From a virus: a stretch of DNA of 20,296 nt. The notes below the pieces were generated by a model. That model worked only from the letters and a program-made list of their open reading frames with translations, was not told the origin of the DNA and did no database searches. Below are positions 5,237 through 13,495 of this stretch, piece by piece (position 1 is the stretch's first letter; each line of letters starts with the position of its first letter). The stretch lies in IMG/VR virus record IMGVR_UViG_3300030202_000791, positions 3,864 to 24,159 of that record. One strand, given 5' to 3'. The position numbers and the translations under genes were made by a program.

Positions 5237-7688
5237 TTGTTACTCTCTTAAATAAAGCTCTATACTCTATTGATATGTCATTAATTTCTATTCCTGTAGT
5301 AGTACTAGTGGTTGTAGTATTTTCTATCTTAATTTTAATACTTTGAAACTCTACAGGAGAAGATACTACTGCTCTAAGTTTTTTCCAAGCAGAAGATACT
5401 TCCATGTTACCAGTCATTGCTACAAAAGTATCAGAACCATCTATTGCATAAAATATTGGATTTGTTTGTGGAGTATCACTTTTATAAGTAATTGTAACTG
5501 CATATAATTTTTTTGCTTTTGCAGGTATTCCTAAATCAAAATCTTTTGTAGCTATACTAAATTTACCACTAGCTACAGCTCTTGGATTATCAGACCATTC
5601 TTTTACTACTATGTTATCACTAGATGATTGCCAAACTCTATTTTCTAAACTATCCCATGTAGAAAGAACTTTATCTATTGTAGGTTCAGTTCTAAGTTTA
5701 TTAGAATATGCAACTAACATATTACCATTCCAATCAGTAACCATATTAGACCTGTTTACACTATTATCAAATGCATCTGTACCTTTAACAAATGATTGTG
5801 TTCTAAAATCATATATATAAACTGTACCACTATTTGCAGTAGCAAATGAATCATTTAAAATAACTACATAATATTTTTTAGGATTATATCCTACTGAAGT
5901 AGCTTTACCAAAAAATGATTCCCATTCAGATTCTTTTATTTTACCTCTAATTAAATTAGTAATACCACGACCATCATATAAAAATACTCCATATTCATTA
6001 GCCCATACTATACCAGCTTCTGTTTTTACAGATGCACCTGGGTGTGATATGCCACAAAAATCTTTTATGTCTTCTAAAAACCAAGAAGATGATGCACCAG
6101 ATATATTTATGATATATAATCTTTTTTGTTTAAATGCTAATAATCTATCAGAATATTCTTCTAACTTAACATATTCTTCTGAATCACCTTGAACTACATC
6201 AACAAAATAACTTCTTGGAAATGTATCAAATTTATTTACAGGGCTATACATAATCCTGTCTCTCATTTGAACTAACTCTCCATCATTATTTAATGTTTTT
6301 ACATTAGCAACAAATGTTCTTTTGTTAGCAACTACAGAAGTTTTATAACCTTCTCCGTTACCACTAATTGTAATTTTAGTTTCATCAGGTCCAAAGCCAT
6401 TTAAAATTTCATATGTTTCTAGATTTGGTCCATTAGATATTAATGCAGTATTGCTAATCTTAGCTTCTGTACCATCACTACCATTTTCCCATGGATTATA
6501 AACATTAGATAATTTAGTTCTAGCACCATCTCTCATACTAATATCTGTAAATAAACCCCACGGATCATCACTACCACTATCTCTATAATATATTCTTGCA
6601 CCAGATAACCTAGGTTCATATGCAGACTTAGCTCTTAACTCAATAGTCATAGTACTAAAATCAGCAGTAGGTGAAAATGTATTATTAGAAGATGGTATAA
6701 ATAATAATGATTCTTGACCACTTTCATCATAAATAAAAGATAATGCAAATTCATATGTTTTAGCACTTCTCCAAAAACCAGTATTAACACTACCACTAGC
6801 TAATGTAAATTCAAATCCAGTACCTGAACTAGGATAGTTAGAAGCATGTATAGTTAAGTTACTAGGAACTGCTAATGTATTAGCTTTTGAAAACCAATTA
6901 TCATATGTATCAACAGAACTTGTTCCATGAAAATGTGAGCGTTTAATATATAAATATTTATGTGGTTGTAGTTGTTCTCCAAAAGCTCTATCTGCAACTC
7001 TTAATCCTTCGTTAGCATAATAAAATTCAGCTTGGAACATTTTTGTTAATACAGGAGTTCCACTTTCATCTTCATCTTGTATTAATTCTCCAGAATGGTC
7101 TAAAGTAATAGTTAGTGCAACTACATCTTTTACTTTTAATGATGCAAAATTATTAGCTGTATCATCAACACCATTTAAACTAATTATATCTCCTTTTCTA
7201 ATACCATCAATATTACTACTAGCTCCATCTACATCTAAAAATGAACCATCATCACGTACAATAGTATCAAGTACTCCAGATGACCCTCGATTAAATCGTA
7301 ATTTATTTGCACCTAAAGTCTCAGATGTAACTGTTCCTAAATCTATTGCTTCAGCTTCAAAAGAATCGTCTGTTAAATTATAAAGGTCAACAGTACCTGT
7401 TATACCATCAGCAATTGCTAACCAATTTTCTCCTGTATCTAAAGAGGCAGAACCTGCTTCATGGTCTGATTCAAATACAAATACTCCTGAACCTGCAGCA
7501 ATTCCACCTGCTTGTGTAGATGGTACATCTTGATGTGTAATATTACCACCTAATGGTTTAATACTATTTCTTTCGTCAAGAATAATATTATCTGCTAATG
7601 ATAATGCATTATCAGGAATATCTCTAGCATTAGTAGCATTAACTAAACCACCTTCAAATCTATTTACGCTTATTAGAGCTTTTGGCAT
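5229..7688 (-). CDS. Tail nozzle / stabilization-like protein (P22 gp10 or T7 gp12 type role)
   Basis: At 819 residues this is the largest protein in the window. The N terminus (residues about 8-48: NRFEGGLVNATNARDIPDNA, then an ADNI-x-LDERNSIKPLGG stretch) matches the start typical of podovirus nozzle proteins: an FxGGL opening, an IPxN/DxA step and a strand leading to a glycine. The rest is beta-rich, with many Ser/Thr/Asp and aromatic residues. Around 520-610 are motifs such as KRLYIIN and YGVFLYDGRGITNLI that look like blades of a beta-propeller. The C-terminal domain is also beta-rich. The start overlaps the preceding micro-ORF. In this family the protein forms the tail tube tip below the adaptor. 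The assignment rests on N-terminal pattern, size and context. Confidence 0.75.
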   Translation of the reverse strand: MPKALISVNRFEGGLVNATNARDIPDNALSLADNIILDERNSIKPLGGNITHQDVPSTQAGGIAAGSGVFVFESDHEAGSASLDTGENWLAIADGITGTVDLYNLTDDSFEAEAIDLGTVTSETLGANKLRFNRGSSGVLDTIVRDDGSFLDVDGASSNIDGIRKGDIISLNGVDDTANNFASLKVKDVVALTITLDHSGELIQDEDESGTPVLTKMFQAEFYYANEGLRVADRAFGEQLQPHKYLYIKRSHFHGTSSVDTYDNWFSKANTLAVPSNLTIHASNYPSSGTGFEFTLASGSVNTGFWRSAKTYEFALSFIYDESGQESLLFIPSSNNTFSPTADFSTMTIELRAKSAYEPRLSGARIYYRDSGSDDPWGLFTDISMRDGARTKLSNVYNPWENGSDGTEAKISNTALISNGPNLETYEILNGFGPDETKITISGNGEGYKTSVVANKRTFVANVKTLNNDGELVQMRDRIMYSPVNKFDTFPRSYFVDVVQGDSEEYVKLEEYSDRLLAFKQKRLYIINISGASSSWFLEDIKDFCGISHPGASVKTEAGIVWANEYGVFLYDGRGITNLIRGKIKESEWESFFGKATSVGYNPKKYYVVILNDSFATANSGTVYIYDFRTQSFVKGTDAFDNSVNRSNMVTDWNGNMLVAYSNKLRTEPTIDKVLSTWDSLENRVWQSSSDNIVVKEWSDNPRAVASGKFSIATKDFDLGIPAKAKKLYAVTITYKSDTPQTNPIFYAIDGSDTFVAMTGNMEVSSAWKKLRAVVSSPVEFQSIKIKIENTTTTSTTTGIEINDISIEYRALFKRVTSG

Positions 7689-7800
7689 TCTTTACTTTCT
7701 TTTTCTTTTTTTTACCATAATGTTTTCTACGTTCTTGATTTATATCTTTTAATACTTTCATATCAGTTAAATATTTAAATAGTCCTCCAAGTGAACTCAT
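7660..7800 (-). CDS. Lysine-rich micro-protein (46 aa)
   Basis: The ATG at 7800 overlaps the TGA of the upstream membrane protein as ATGA, a standard coupling arrangement, and the frame runs to TAG at 7660. It encodes MSSLGGLFKYLTDMKVLKDI followed by a basic tail (RRKHYG, six lysines, then VKNAKSSNKRK). The end overlaps the nozzle gene by 29 bases. Without this gene the space between the flanking genes would be unused, unlike elsewhere in this compact genome. Function is unknown. The amphipathic N terminus and polybasic tail would fit membrane or nucleic-acid contact, which is only a guess. Confidence 0.6.
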   Translation of the reverse strand: MSSLGGLFKYLTDMKVLKDINQERRKHYGKKKKKKVKNAKSSNKRK

Positions 7801-9705: not shown

Positions 9706-9828
9706 TTAATACCTAGTACTTACTTTCTTATTACTAGGTCCTTTTTTCTTACCCATTTTCATTTTAGAACTTTTTCTCACTTTGACTTTCTTAGGCATTT
9801 TACCAGCCTTCGGTTTTCCATACGCCAT
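9706..9828 (-). CDS. Very basic micro-protein (40 aa)
   Basis: This frame is too short for most gene callers but well supported. The ATG at 9828 has AAGGAG about 8 bases upstream, embedded in the 3' end of the preceding gene, and the stop at 9706 lies 2 bases before the holin-like gene. It encodes MAYGKPKAGKMPKKVKVRKS and then a lysine-rich tail ending in STRY. By my count 14 Lys and 2 Arg among 40 residues, with no acidic residue. The composition is protamine-like. It belongs to a run of four lysine-rich genes and is probably a nucleic-acid-binding or virion-packaged peptide, though function cannot be read from sequence. Confidence 0.65.
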   Translation of the reverse strand: MAYGKPKAGKMPKKVKVRKSSKMKMGKKKGPSNKKVSTRY

Positions 9829-9829
9829 T

Positions 9830-10039
9830 TTACTTTCTCCTTTTCTTAGCTTGTTTAACACGAGATTTTTCTACTGCTTTTAAATTAATTTTTTTACCTG
9901 CTTTATATAGCTTTGCAGTTCTTTTTATTTCTGCAGCTTTTTTCCTAGGGTTCTTAGAACCTTTGGTGTACTTAGCAGGAACTCCATGTTTATATGGTTG
10001 CTTCCTTTTACTTTTTCTTTTTTGTTTTTTTCTTTGCAC
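9830..10039 (-). CDS. Very basic small protein (69 aa, GTG start)
   Basis: The frame starts at GTG 10039 inside the end of the previous gene (32-base overlap). No in-frame ATG exists further in, so the exact start is uncertain; coupling or re-initiation from the upstream gene is likely. The product is MQRKKQKRKSKRKQPYKHG, then a KYTKGSKNPRKKAAEIKR segment and a tail ending KQAKKRRK. I count 31 Lys or Arg among 69 residues and only 2 acidic residues. The AAEIKRTAKLYKAGKKI helix resembles short proteins I recall from marine phages, but I cannot name a family. A role in binding DNA or RNA, or in the virion, is plausible. Confidence 0.65.
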   Translation of the reverse strand: MQRKKQKRKSKRKQPYKHGVPAKYTKGSKNPRKKAAEIKRTAKLYKAGKKINLKAVEKSRVKQAKKRRK

Positions 10040-10274
10040 CTTTTCTCAAATCTGTATCATGTTTTCTACTACCTCGAATGTAAGAATTTACTCTACCCAT
10101 AGCCCATGCTGCCATAGGTACATTTCTACTACCACTAGATAAATATGCAGCTTGACCTCTTTTATATACTTTCTTTAAAGTACCAAGAGCTATGCCAGAA
10201 CTTTTAGCTTTACCAGCTAGTCCTTTACCACCACTACTTTTTTTCTTTACTGGTTTTTTCTTCTTTACTGCCAT
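10008..10274 (-). CDS. Lysine-rich small phage protein (88 aa) with conserved-looking core
   Basis: The best start is ATG 10274 (MAVKKKKPVKKKSSGG). The frame is open further upstream to 10322 but then overlaps the previous gene much more, and an extra ATG at 10286 is also possible. The core GTLKKVYKRGQAAYLSSGSR and NVPMAAWAMGRVNSYIRG resembles a motif (an aromatic start, then W-x-M-x-RVNS-I-x-G, then DxDL) that I recall in small phage proteins of unknown function. Both ends are poly-lysine. It overlaps its upstream neighbour by 41 bases and its downstream neighbour by 32, always within A-rich runs that code for lysine. A nucleic-acid-binding role is possible; the conserved core suggests a folded domain. 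Confidence 0.65.
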   Translation of the reverse strand: MAVKKKKPVKKKSSGGKGLAGKAKSSGIALGTLKKVYKRGQAAYLSSGSRNVPMAAWAMGRVNSYIRGSRKHDTDLRKGAKKKTKKKK

Positions 10275-10410
10275 TACATTTCCCATCTTCACAACATTCT
10301 GATAAAGCTTGTTTATACCCAATCAATTGATTTTGCTCTGCACTTAATGCTTGTATTTGTTGTGGTATTTCTTTTAATCGTCTATTAATATCTTCTTTTT
10401 TTAATGCCAT
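10234..10410 (-). CDS. Small helical protein with CC-x4-C motif (58 aa)
   Basis: The start is chosen at ATG 10410 because it has AGAGGA just upstream; a longer frame to 10500 would run through the previous gene. It encodes MALKKEDINRRLKEIPQQIQ, then a Gln/Leu helix (ALSAEQNQLIGYKQALSE), then CCEDGKCNG and a charged Lys/Glu tail. The first 40 residues look like a short coiled coil. The three cysteines might bind a metal or form disulphides. I do not recognise a family. The start lies 1 base after the upstream stop. Confidence 0.65.
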   Translation of the reverse strand: MALKKEDINRRLKEIPQQIQALSAEQNQLIGYKQALSECCEDGKCNGSKEEKTSKEKK

Positions 10411-10411
10411 A

Positions 10412-10732
10412 CTATCCTCTTTTTTTTTTAGATTTATTTCTTTTACTAATTGCTTTAGCTTTTTTCTTAGCATCAACTTTACTACTTGCACCCCAAGCAT
10501 TCAATGATAATAAAAGTCTAGTCTTTTCTTTCTTACCAGTCTTTTTATTTACTTTATACTCAGGACCTTTAGCTCCACCCATTCTAGCTAAGAAAGATGC
10601 TCTTCTAGGATTATCACCACTCTTAACAGGTGCTTTTAATTTACCACCTTTATAAGAAGCTCTACCCTTAGCATTTAATCCACCTTTAGGATTCTTACCT
10701 TCTTTTCTTTGCCATGCTGGAGTTTTAGCCAC
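10412..10732 (-). CDS. Basic small phage protein, DUF6321-like (106 aa)
   Basis: I place the start at GTG 10732 (GGAGA 8 bases upstream; one-base overlap with the previous TAG), giving MAKTPAWQRKEGKNPKGG. The frame is open to a TTG at 10747, but that start has no such support. The sequence TPAWQRKEGKNPKGGLN, then KAPVKSGDNPRRASFLARMG, then KTRLLLSLNAWGASSKV matches a short basic family I recall from marine phages and cyanophages as DUF6321. That name is from memory and unverified. The end is poly-lysine (KRNKSKKKRG). Function is unknown; the many basic residues and PRR motif suggest nucleic-acid contact. Confidence 0.75.
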   Translation of the reverse strand: MAKTPAWQRKEGKNPKGGLNAKGRASYKGGKLKAPVKSGDNPRRASFLARMGGAKGPEYKVNKKTGKKEKTRLLLSLNAWGASSKVDAKKKAKAISKRNKSKKKRG

Positions 10733-10974
10733 TAATACAATCTCCAATCATTTGCTAAATTATTCCAATCTTTATACTTAGTTCTATTTGTATCTTTTTT
10801 TACAATTTCAAACTGCTCATGTGTATAACACCAAAGCCTTGTAGAATCTTGATTAAACAAAACTACTCTATTATAAAAATGACCTTTACCATTTTGATCT
10901 CTTAGTATATCCATATTATTTACTCCATTACAACTTAAAGATAATAGAATAGGTATGAATAATTTTTTAAGCAT
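10732..10974 (-). CDS. Putative small lipoprotein (80 aa)
   Basis: The N terminus (MLKKLFIPILLSLSC) has two lysines, a hydrophobic stretch and a cysteine at residue 15: a signal peptide with a loose lipobox (LSLSC rather than the ideal LAGC). The mature part of about 65 residues is polar, with aromatic and charged residues (HFYNRVVLF, RLWCYTHEQFEIV, DWNNLANDW). I chose ATG 10974; a TTG at 10980 has a better-spaced AAGGA site, so the start may be two codons earlier. The gene overlaps the fibre gene's end. An outer-membrane lipoprotein of this size just ahead of a lysis module could be an o-spanin or a superinfection-exclusion protein; neither is shown. Confidence 0.65.
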   Translation of the reverse strand: MLKKLFIPILLSLSCNGVNNMDILRDQNGKGHFYNRVVLFNQDSTRLWCYTHEQFEIVKKDTNRTKYKDWNNLANDWRLY

Positions 10975-12268
10975 CTTCAAGAACTTTTATCCTTGCACTT
11001 AATTCTTGTATTGCTTTTAATGACAATACAAATACATCTTGATAGTTCAAACCTAAATACCCATCTTCATTTGCTATTGCAGAAAGTGGTAATATTTTTT
11101 GCACTTCATTAGCTGAAAGACCATAAAACTTTTTATCTTCAGCTACTTCATCTCCATCTATATTTGTGGATTTTGGAAAGTCATTTGTATTTGGGTCTTT
11201 CTTTTGATATTCACCAATCTTAGTAAGTGTATTTATTTTATCAGTTGCATTTTCAAAAACATTCCAATTTTGTTTTAATCTTTCATCAGAACTTATAGCT
11301 GAAAAACTTGTTGCTCCTGAAGTTAATTCTACACCTCCTGAGTTTGAAATTACCTGTACTATTGTACTATTAATAGATTTGAGAATATTTGGATTTCCAC
11401 CACCTCCACTATATTCTGCTGAAGTAACTTGAAAAACACCATTAGCTTCATCCAAGAAAACAATCTGATTAACTGCATCTGTTCCTACAAATGTTATTGG
11501 TTTATATGATGTAGTTCCACCAGGGGCTAATCTTAATACTTCTGAAGAAACTGCATTACCATCAGTAATACTAAATCTTAATTCAGTTCCATTTTCTGAA
11601 GCACTCCATTGTGCATCACAAATAGCTTCTATCTGTGCACCTTCAGTAATAGTAGCCGAACCATCTTCAGCTCCTAAAAAAGTGATTGCACCAAGCCTAT
11701 CACCACTCTCCATTGTTGAACCATCATCTGTAATAAGTTGTATTTCTGCACCTGAAGTTGCACTACCTTCTGTTGATGTTTGAACTTTAAAACCAGGATT
11801 TGCTAATGCTCCAGTAATTGTAATACCTTGATTACTTGTAGTTAATCCTGGGGCTAACCTTAATACTTCAGAAGAGGAAGCGTTGCCATCAGTTATATTA
11901 AATCTTAATTCTGTTCCATTCTCACTTGCACTCCAATTATTATCACAAATAGCTTCTATTTCTGCACCCTGTGTAATTGTACTACTAGCATCTTCTGCTC
12001 CTGAAAATTCTATAACTCCTAATCTATGACCAGTTGCCATAGCAGCTCCATCATCAGATTGTAATATTAAAATTCCACCTTTATCTGCTGCAGATGCAGT
12101 AGGGTTGTCTACTACTATTGCTTCTGTTGAGACTTGTAATGCAAAAGTAGTGTCATTATCACCATCTTTAATATTTACTAAAGTAGCTCCATTACCTCCT
12201 CCATCTCTATCTACATGTAATAGTTGTTCGTAACTATTTGCTATTGTTTGTCCTGTTAAAGCTCCCAT
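10967..12268 (-). CDS. Tail fibre/appendage with C-terminal S74 self-cleaving chaperone domain
   Basis: A 433-residue protein with an AAGGAG site. Residues about 1-320 are beta-rich fibre repeats. The C-terminal ~110 residues are an intramolecular chaperone (Peptidase_S74): S327-D-E-R-L-K332 contains the Ser/Lys dyad, five residues apart as in endosialidase chaperones, with self-cleavage expected just before S327. Typical S74 patches follow: FYGLSANEVQKILP (381-394), GYLGLNYQDVFVLSLKAIQE (403-422) and a trailing coiled coil. The chaperone trimerises the fibre and is then cut off. The shaft contains a clear duplication of about 100 residues (see repeats). It is the likely receptor-binding or appendage protein of this phage. 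Confidence 0.85.
   Translation of the reverse strand: MGALTGQTIANSYEQLLHVDRDGGGNGATLVNIKDGDNDTTFALQVSTEAIVVDNPTASAADKGGILILQSDDGAAMATGHRLGVIEFSGAEDASSTITQGAEIEAICDNNWSASENGTELRFNITDGNASSSEVLRLAPGLTTSNQGITITGALANPGFKVQTSTEGSATSGAEIQLITDDGSTMESGDRLGAITFLGAEDGSATITEGAQIEAICDAQWSASENGTELRFSITDGNAVSSEVLRLAPGGTTSYKPITFVGTDAVNQIVFLDEANGVFQVTSAEYSGGGGNPNILKSINSTIVQVISNSGGVELTSGATSFSAISSDERLKQNWNVFENATDKINTLTKIGEYQKKDPNTNDFPKSTNIDGDEVAEDKKFYGLSANEVQKILPLSAIANEDGYLGLNYQDVFVLSLKAIQELSARIKVLEDA
11486..11791 (-). repeat. Second copy of internal fibre repeat
   Basis: Residues about 160-261 of the fibre protein. They match residues about 42-152 with a constant offset of 109 residues at the RLG, CD-x2-WSASENGTELRF and SSEVLRLAPG motifs. 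The copies differ at scattered positions. Confidence 0.8.
11813..12145 (-). repeat. First copy of internal fibre repeat
   Basis: Residues about 42-152 of the fibre protein. Shared blocks with the second copy: a DDG-x2-M-x2-G-x-RLG start, the EAICD-x2-WSASENGTELRF core, and an ITDGNA-x-SSEVLRLAPG end. It has about nine extra residues near its start compared with the second copy. Confidence 0.8.
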
Positions 12269-12916: not shown

Positions 12917-13347
12917 TCTTCATCCTTATCTCTTGTGCTATGTACTGTTGGTTCAAAGCCTTGTAATTTAATAACTGTCTTTTGAACTCTGCCAGTATTA
13001 GCATATCTTTTTCCTTCTATAACGCCTAAATTGTATTGACGTTCCCAATATGTTGCAGTTGATAAAGTATCTGGATTTAATTCATATCCTCTTTGTATAG
13101 CTTTAGCTACAACTGCATGTCTAAATTCTTCTGGAATATCTGGTTCTTCAGTATATCCTGTTGTTGTATTTGTAGTTCCTGTATCAGCAGCAACAAATTT
13201 ATTAGGTTTTTTAACTGCAAATATAGTTACAGTTTTAACTTCACTTGGTGAGTTATAAGATGTTGATGTATCACCAACTGATCTTGAGATAATTGCTATT
13301 GCATCTCTCTCAACATAATATGCAAAATTACGTTGACTACTTGGCAT
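12913..13347 (-). CDS. Head-tail connector/adaptor-like protein (144 aa)
   Basis: A 144-residue protein. The first half is beta-like (DAIAIISRSVGDT, EVKTVTIFAVKKPNKF). The second half has the helical pattern typical of phage connector C termini: PDIPEEFRHAVVAKAIQRGY, then TATYWERQYNLGVIEGKRYA. It follows another adaptor-like gene and a 52-residue ORF and overlaps both neighbours. I infer a role in the neck joining the portal to the tail. It could work together with the 89-residue protein, which looks like an N-terminal adaptor half. Confidence 0.65.
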   Translation of the reverse strand: MPSSQRNFAYYVERDAIAIISRSVGDTSTSYNSPSEVKTVTIFAVKKPNKFVAADTGTTNTTTGYTEEPDIPEEFRHAVVAKAIQRGYELNPDTLSTATYWERQYNLGVIEGKRYANTGRVQKTVIKLQGFEPTVHSTRDKDEE

Positions 13348-13495
13348 TCTTATGTTTCATCATTACAGAAAATTTAGCTGTTTTAGATGCTCCTTTATGT
13401 GGTTTATAAACACCTTTTGTTTTCATTAACTTATATGTAGTCTTTCCTGTTTTCATCCAATGAAAGCCTTTTGGGGCTGGTACTGATTTCATCAT
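13337..13495 (-). CDS. Lysine-rich micro-protein (52 aa)
   Basis: The ATG at 13495 overlaps the upstream TGA as ATGA (a second ATG follows at once) with GAGAGA upstream, and the frame ends at TAG 13337. It encodes MMKSVPAPKGFHWMKTGKTT, then YKLMKTKGVYKPHKGASKTA and KFSVMMKHKNAK. The repeating YKxx(K)PHKGA style and high lysine content look like a small phage protein I recall from marine phages, without known function. It is inserted between two adaptor-like genes and overlaps the next gene by 11 bases. Confidence 0.6.
   Translation of the reverse strand: MMKSVPAPKGFHWMKTGKTTYKLMKTKGVYKPHKGASKTAKFSVMMKHKNAK

Follow-up and report, generated by a model that had tools for sequence, protein, structure and literature searches.

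A split DUF5824 protein and a free-standing DUF6321 protein as candidate head and packaging accessories in a cassette of short basic phage genes

In this viral sequence, a cassette of short, strongly basic genes appears to carry the protein family DUF5824 in two pieces, encoded by genes of 69 and 88 amino acids, together with a free-standing DUF6321 domain in a protein of 106 amino acids. Our preferred reading, to which we give a little better than an even chance, is that the 69- and 88-aa proteins form one split DUF5824 unit and that both it and the DUF6321 protein are accessory proteins of the head and packaging apparatus, predicted to bind DNA and present in limited copy number.

The window (the whole stretch of DNA analysed) covers 20.3 kb out of a 24.2-kb viral record, and all genes recognised in it lie on the minus strand. 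Most gene names that we use (terminase large subunit, portal, scaffold, capsid, adaptor, S74-type fibre, the small genes, M15 endolysin, and metallophosphoesterase) are putative, being read from sequence, gene order, and annotated relatives. The same gene families occur in the same order in marine pelagiphages and in IMG/VR contigs (e.g., L007, L167, and L248), and deposited phages give the window portal nothing but very distant matches. The features that concern us are the following.

10412 to 10732, minus strand: 106-aa basic protein, DUF6321 (PF19846, phrog_4689); its GTG start overlaps the upstream stop (TAGTG)
10234 to 10410, minus strand: 58-aa protein, non-basic and coiled-coil-like, with the cysteine cluster CCEDGKC; net charge +2, outside the basic set
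10008 to 10274, minus strand: 88-aa basic protein, C-terminal half of DUF5824 (phrog_28338), matching PF19141 positions 64 to 110 of 127
9830 to 10039, minus strand: 69-aa basic protein, phrog_38321, equivalent of the DUF5824 N-terminal half; GTG start; 32-bp overlap with the 88-aa gene
9706 to 9828, minus strand: 40-aa Lys-rich peptide with zero acidic residues; no Pfam or PHROG family matched
13337 to 13495, minus strand: 52-aa basic protein; its family is distinct and conserved, with relatives in 75 viral contigs; no Pfam or PHROG family matched
7660 to 7800, minus strand: 46-aa basic protein with an MSSLGGLF leader and a Lys-rich tail; overlaps the start of the 819-aa tail protein gene; no Pfam or PHROG family matched
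Elsewhere in the window, minus strand: 88-aa holin-like gene and the 819-aa tail protein, named mostly from sequence, order, and annotated relatives

The first-pass annotation had described four neighbouring, extremely basic genes at 9706 to 10732, between fibre and lysis genes. All four are present on the minus strand, with net charges of +16 (40 aa), +29 (69 aa), +26 (88 aa), and +29 (106 aa), but they are not strictly consecutive, as the 58-aa gene lies between the 106- and 88-aa genes. Composition confirms the residue counts given at the time: the 40-aa protein has 16 Lys/Arg (14 Lys and 2 Arg) and no Asp or Glu, and the 69-aa protein has 31 (23 Lys and 8 Arg) against 2 acidic residues. 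The two additional basic micro-ORFs reported at 7660 to 7800 and 13337 to 13495 are also real ORFs, of 46 and 52 aa and net charge +14 each, the 52-aa protein with 14 Lys and no acidic residue. Over the whole basic set, Lys and Arg make up 27 to 45% of the residues and net charge runs from +14 to +29, a composition as extremely basic as that of protamine-like viral core peptides. The cassette is a tight string of overlapping or abutting genes from fibre to lysis. The 88-aa gene shares 41 bp with the 58-aa gene and 32 bp with the 69-aa gene, the 106-aa gene starts at the TAGTG junction, and the other junctions involve 1 to 2 bp, so that joint expression with the fibre and lysis genes is likely. 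A scan for promoters and terminators found sites no commoner than in shuffled sequences and no internal terminator on the coding strand. Directly before the DUF6321 gene lies an 82-aa lipoprotein-like gene (10732 to 10980, minus strand; LSC after a hydrophobic start), which might encode a spanin or lipoprotein.

Short Lys-rich frames might arise by chance in an AT-rich genome, or be decaying genes, and some members of the set look the part: the 40-aa gene is almost unconstrained (dN/dS of 0.73 to 0.84 against close relatives), and the 40- and 46-aa families are confined to 10 and 6 loci, respectively. For the 58-aa gene, whose family occurs in 14 loci, dN/dS is 0.43 to 0.63, and for the 46-aa gene it is 0.07 to 0.39. 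The 69-, 88-, and 106-aa families, in contrast, are found in hundreds of viral contigs and are under strong purifying selection against close relatives (dN/dS of 0.02 to 0.05, 0.08 to 0.14, and 0.14 to 0.17, respectively), which refutes chance or decay for three of the four genes. Moreover, although the charge of the basic families drops somewhat as GC content rises, at a GC content of at least 50% it still stands at +0.26 per residue for the 69-aa family, +0.20 for the 88-aa family, and +0.16 for DUF6321, compared to −0.02 ± 0.045 for ORFs of more than 200 aa in the same loci; AT bias is therefore not its explanation. We consider the chance of this reading practically negligible: the three genes are conserved and under purifying selection, and the 40-aa gene encodes a Lys-rich peptide that evolves fast and whose role is uncertain. 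The 46-aa protein begins MSSLGGLFKYLTDMKVLKD, and a near-identical leader (MSSLGGLFLYMNRLDKALKD) is fused before a 69-aa-family domain in contig L011 (9117 to 9362), which suggests, from the sequences compared, shuffling of a short leader.

For the 69- and 88-aa genes, the evidence points to one protein carried in two pieces. The 88-aa protein matches DUF5824 above the Pfam gathering score (E = 1.8e-7, 31.8 bits against 25 bits) and phrog_28338 at E = 1.1e-20, and the 69-aa protein matches phrog_38321 at E = 6.1e-10; searched alone, the 69-aa family has no match in Pfam. When ORFs were extracted from all fetched loci and searched with profiles from the window proteins, the 69-aa family was also present in 78 of the 80 contigs found via the 88-aa protein, the next commonest family occurring in 16. 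Removal of overlapping loci left a distinct set of 144 viral loci, in which each of the two families occurs 63 times and both occur together in 62 (62 of 63 paired), at most 100 bp apart in 60. Their arrangement in the distinct loci is free, in that (i) the 69-aa gene is upstream in 30, (ii) it is downstream in 24, and (iii) the two are fused in 8. Fusions, found in 13 loci, give ORFs of 130 to 217 aa with the 69-aa family in the N-terminal position; three of the four fused forms tested match most of the 127 positions of PF19141, starting at 1, 9, or 15 and ending at 109, and the fourth matches 55 to 109. Since fused ORFs match DUF5824, the named family would be the fused protein, which the window, unlike these natural homologues, appears to carry as two overlapping genes. 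Phage C48C1 has PF19141 positions 1 to 55 in one gene (E = 2.9e-4) and 63 to 125 in the next; judged by sequence, this is an independent split, with an N-terminal match that is sub-threshold. A linkage that survives both order swap and fusion argues for two chains working as one. The earlier proposal of a set acting together thus holds for two of the genes, the near-obligate pair, and the conserved gene order that was to be sought in related phages turned out to be conserved proximity, with the order itself free.

The DUF5824 domain is found in other settings as well. It is part of cytidylyltransferase-like proteins of HTVC008M and Melnitz, and in two contigs (L340 and L342) it shares one protein with a phrog_7595 module, which is a separate gene near the 69/88 pair in three other contigs and also occurs inside phrog_220, annotated as “minor head protein and DNA pilot.” Outside the window, the 52-aa family directly adjoins fused DUF5824 or DUF6321 genes: it is at most 100 bp away from DUF5824 in 5 distinct loci, and from DUF6321 in contig L133.

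In relatives of the window, the pair is typically a neighbour of packaging genes. It lies within 1 kb of TerL or portal in 25 of the 29 distinct contigs with a recognised terminase or portal, at a median distance of 211 bp compared to 1729 bp for random ORFs of 50 to 200 aa on the same contigs (P < 5e-4; 0 of 2000 permutations as close), figures subject to possible drift of the iterated terminase profiles and to the choice of all contigs by similarity to a window protein. The neighbouring TerL genes belong to phrog_38, phrog_2/5902, and phrog_2472 and the portals to phrog_145, phrog_1216, and phrog_332/156, so that more than one kind of packaging module is involved. One Adonisia turfae contig has an 88-like domain C-terminal to Phage_portal_3 in the same protein (portal E = 4.7e-32; domain HMM, 1.2e-12). 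Among known phages, the 88-aa family is present in the pelagiphages HTVC026P, HTVC111P, and HTVC202P and in Prochlorococcus phage MED4-184; in MED4-184 both halves lie between portal/head-morphogenesis and capsid genes, and in HTVC026P the 88-aa family lies between an M15 peptidase and a phosphodiesterase gene, partly similar to the window layout. Unlike in the window, no DUF6321 was recognised beside the 88-aa family in the regions of these four phages that we read. The window cassette itself, between fibre and endolysin and away from the terminase, is an exception among relatives; the fibre/lysis position emphasised in the first-pass annotation is real but particular to this lineage. That annotation had also spoken of a virion gene block, and here the context and fusions of the relatives point to the head and packaging apparatus as the probable setting.

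Because the basic genes adjoin TerL in many contigs, they could be small-terminase-like packaging factors that recognise phage DNA. Yet separate small-terminase genes (phrog_309/606) coexist with the pair in L049, L054, and L061, T4-like phages carry gp16 too, and the Pfam and PHROG searches gave no match to a small-terminase family. We rejected a small-terminase identity on these grounds and regard such a function as very unlikely.

DUF6321 may be linked to the virion by a different route. The 106-aa protein spans the whole DUF6321 model, positions 1 to 72 of 72 (Pfam E = 4.5e-16, 59.7 bits against a gathering score of 28.5; PHROG E = 7.5e-26), and is free-standing with Lys-rich ends, whereas in T4-like cyanophages DUF6321 is the C-terminal domain of proteins of 300 to 900 aa. 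One of these is T4-GC119 of the cyanomyoviruses, a much larger mosaic with other modules, which has DUF6321 in common with the 106-aa protein (as its C-terminal 70 residues in S-SM1) and whose gene adjoins the terminase gene gp16 or gp17. In the records compared, the GenBank label “similar to Synechococcus phage S-SM1 protein” is attached to GC119, GC190, gp3, gp14, gp15, gp18, gp19, gp20, gp21, and gp23 and is missing from gp16, gp17, gp22, and the replication genes. The S-SM1 study reports 41 virion proteins, with gp14, gp21, and GC190 among the newly detected ones (PMC3037559). Read against this, the record labels suggest that T4-GC119 was detected in S-SM1 virions. DUF5824 was not found in two cyanophage GC190 proteins tested, so the virion detection of GC190 does not transfer to DUF5824, and we dropped it as direct evidence for that domain. 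Within its own loci, DUF6321 is no closer to TerL or portal than random (P = 0.39), although it lies near the terminase in Methylophilales phage MEP402 and, in L336, follows terminase and portal side by side with the 88-aa family; its co-occurrence with DUF5824 is rare (3 of 63 distinct loci).

Several database entries met in this survey deserve mention. The T4-GC119 of S-SM2 (L326, 1802 to 3928) contains a DUF192 domain (E = 3.6e-24) upstream of DUF6321. MT375525.1 and OQ594354.1 label the feature that DUF6321 matches “RecA-like recombination protein,” probably a mis-annotation. OQ594354.1, OL906435.1, and PP438419.1 agree in length (65,014) and in their match, with Synechococcus, Planktothrix, and Planktothricoides as stated hosts, and are possibly one genome deposited three times. 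The title of OQ414635.1 (L001) reads EXVC031P Hodr and its locus tags EXVC032PBaldr.

These neighbourhoods also bear on the view that the basic proteins act inside the cell, as nucleic-acid binders on the host nucleoid, transcription, or ribosomes, and stay outside the virion. Their strong basic charge would suit such a role, as would the fusion of DUF5824 to a cytidylyltransferase-like protein in HTVC008M and Melnitz, near primase-helicase genes. The terminase/portal adjacency across several unrelated modules, the portal fusion, and the GC119 label pattern argue against it, and we hold a purely intracellular role to be unlikely.

Structure prediction speaks to what kind of basic proteins these are. 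The best of five AF2 models of the DUF6321 protein has a mean pLDDT of 89.8 and a pTM of 0.75 (the other models are near 76), and in the fused DUF5824 model residues 73 to 128 form a helical core predicted with confidence (pLDDT of about 90), next to a poor N-terminal half; the alignment behind this model consisted of fused and 88-aa members only, and the 69-aa half is therefore poorly modelled. Searches of the PDB by sequence and by fold gave nothing significant for either domain, and staphylococcal nuclease variants were rejected as DUF5824 relatives, their profile matches being non-significant (E of 0.16 or worse). A viral structure library contains a protein listed as DUF6321 whose structure aligns with our model of DUF5824 (80 columns at 36% identity, probability 1.00, E = 0.018), and this model-based alignment suggests that the two domains may occur in one chain. 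Both cores have conserved Trp, Gly, Asn, and Asp positions and are predicted to fold, as opposed to the unstructured, low-complexity chains of protamine-like core peptides; only the 40- and 46-aa peptides possibly are such chains.

This matters for the proposal of the first-pass annotation that the peptides are protamine-like and condense or neutralise the packaged genome in bulk, in the manner of the adenovirus core or baculovirus P6.9. Like those core peptides, the window proteins are short, strongly basic, and encoded with late genes; their positive charge is extreme and conserved, the genes are co-encoded with fibre and lysis genes, and relatives lie in a head/packaging context. Unlike them, the window proteins are Lys-rich and predicted to be folded, with conserved uncharged positions. 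The stoichiometry is also demanding, since one full set contributes about +100 charges and a 36-kb genome (a size assumed from contig L008) has about 72,000 phosphates, so that half neutralisation would need about 360 copies of every protein. There is, moreover, no evidence that basic proteins contribute much to the neutralisation of phage DNA (PMC3281028). Finally, the cassette has been lost from a close relative, L243, which shares 94% capsid protein identity with the window, compared to 80 to 82% in the carriers L007 and L248. In L243 the 106-aa gene is cleanly absent, and a deletion reaching from within the 88-aa gene into the 40-aa gene has fused the start of the former to the end of the latter across Lys-rich tracts. 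What is left is a 44-residue Lys-rich chimeric ORF (7126 to 7260), with the same junction in a second contig, L332. The chimera implies loss, and the cassette is thus not essential in that lineage. The 58-aa gene persists there, with its flanking basic genes gone. Between predicted folds, copy number, and dispensability, the protamine idea in its strict sense is not supported, and we rate bulk condensation as quite unlikely.

Under the preferred reading, the 69- and 88-aa proteins, as two halves of DUF5824, would act as one small, basic, partly helical unit, and the 106-aa protein would be a free-standing DUF6321 domain, both serving as accessories of the phage head and DNA-packaging apparatus. 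Through their conserved positive charge they would most likely attach to DNA, or to the side of portal and head that faces it, and the proteins, in limited copy number, may enter the particle with the genome. To the observed families, pairing, fusions, and neighbourhoods, this reading adds complex formation, binding to DNA, and a place in the virion or packaging apparatus of this phage, all of which we infer.

DUF5824 and DUF6321, named domains without an assigned function, are found across hundreds of genomes and contigs from marine phages, and a literature search (family names, Pfam and PHROG accessions, pelagiphage virion proteomics, and phage protamine-like proteins) found no paper on either. 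As far as the literature searched shows, neither the pairing of the split halves in free order nor its association with terminase and portal seems to have been described. With the split pair near terminase and portal, and with DUF6321 ending a probable virion protein, these micro-genes become candidates that can be tested as components of the head or of packaging. Phages are generally held to make hardly any use of basic proteins on packaged DNA, a view that abundant basic head proteins would qualify. More tentatively, we speculate that marine phages draw on a common kit of short basic domains (DUF5824 in split or fused form, DUF6321, the 52-aa family, and phrog_7595), mixed as single genes, pairs, and C-terminal add-ons of portal and other head-associated proteins, that places DNA-binding surfaces inside the head, the 69- and 88-aa genes being one protein reassembled from two genes in either order. 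We see this as possible, though not probable; if true, the kit of basic domains would be a phage counterpart of DNA-associated virion proteins.
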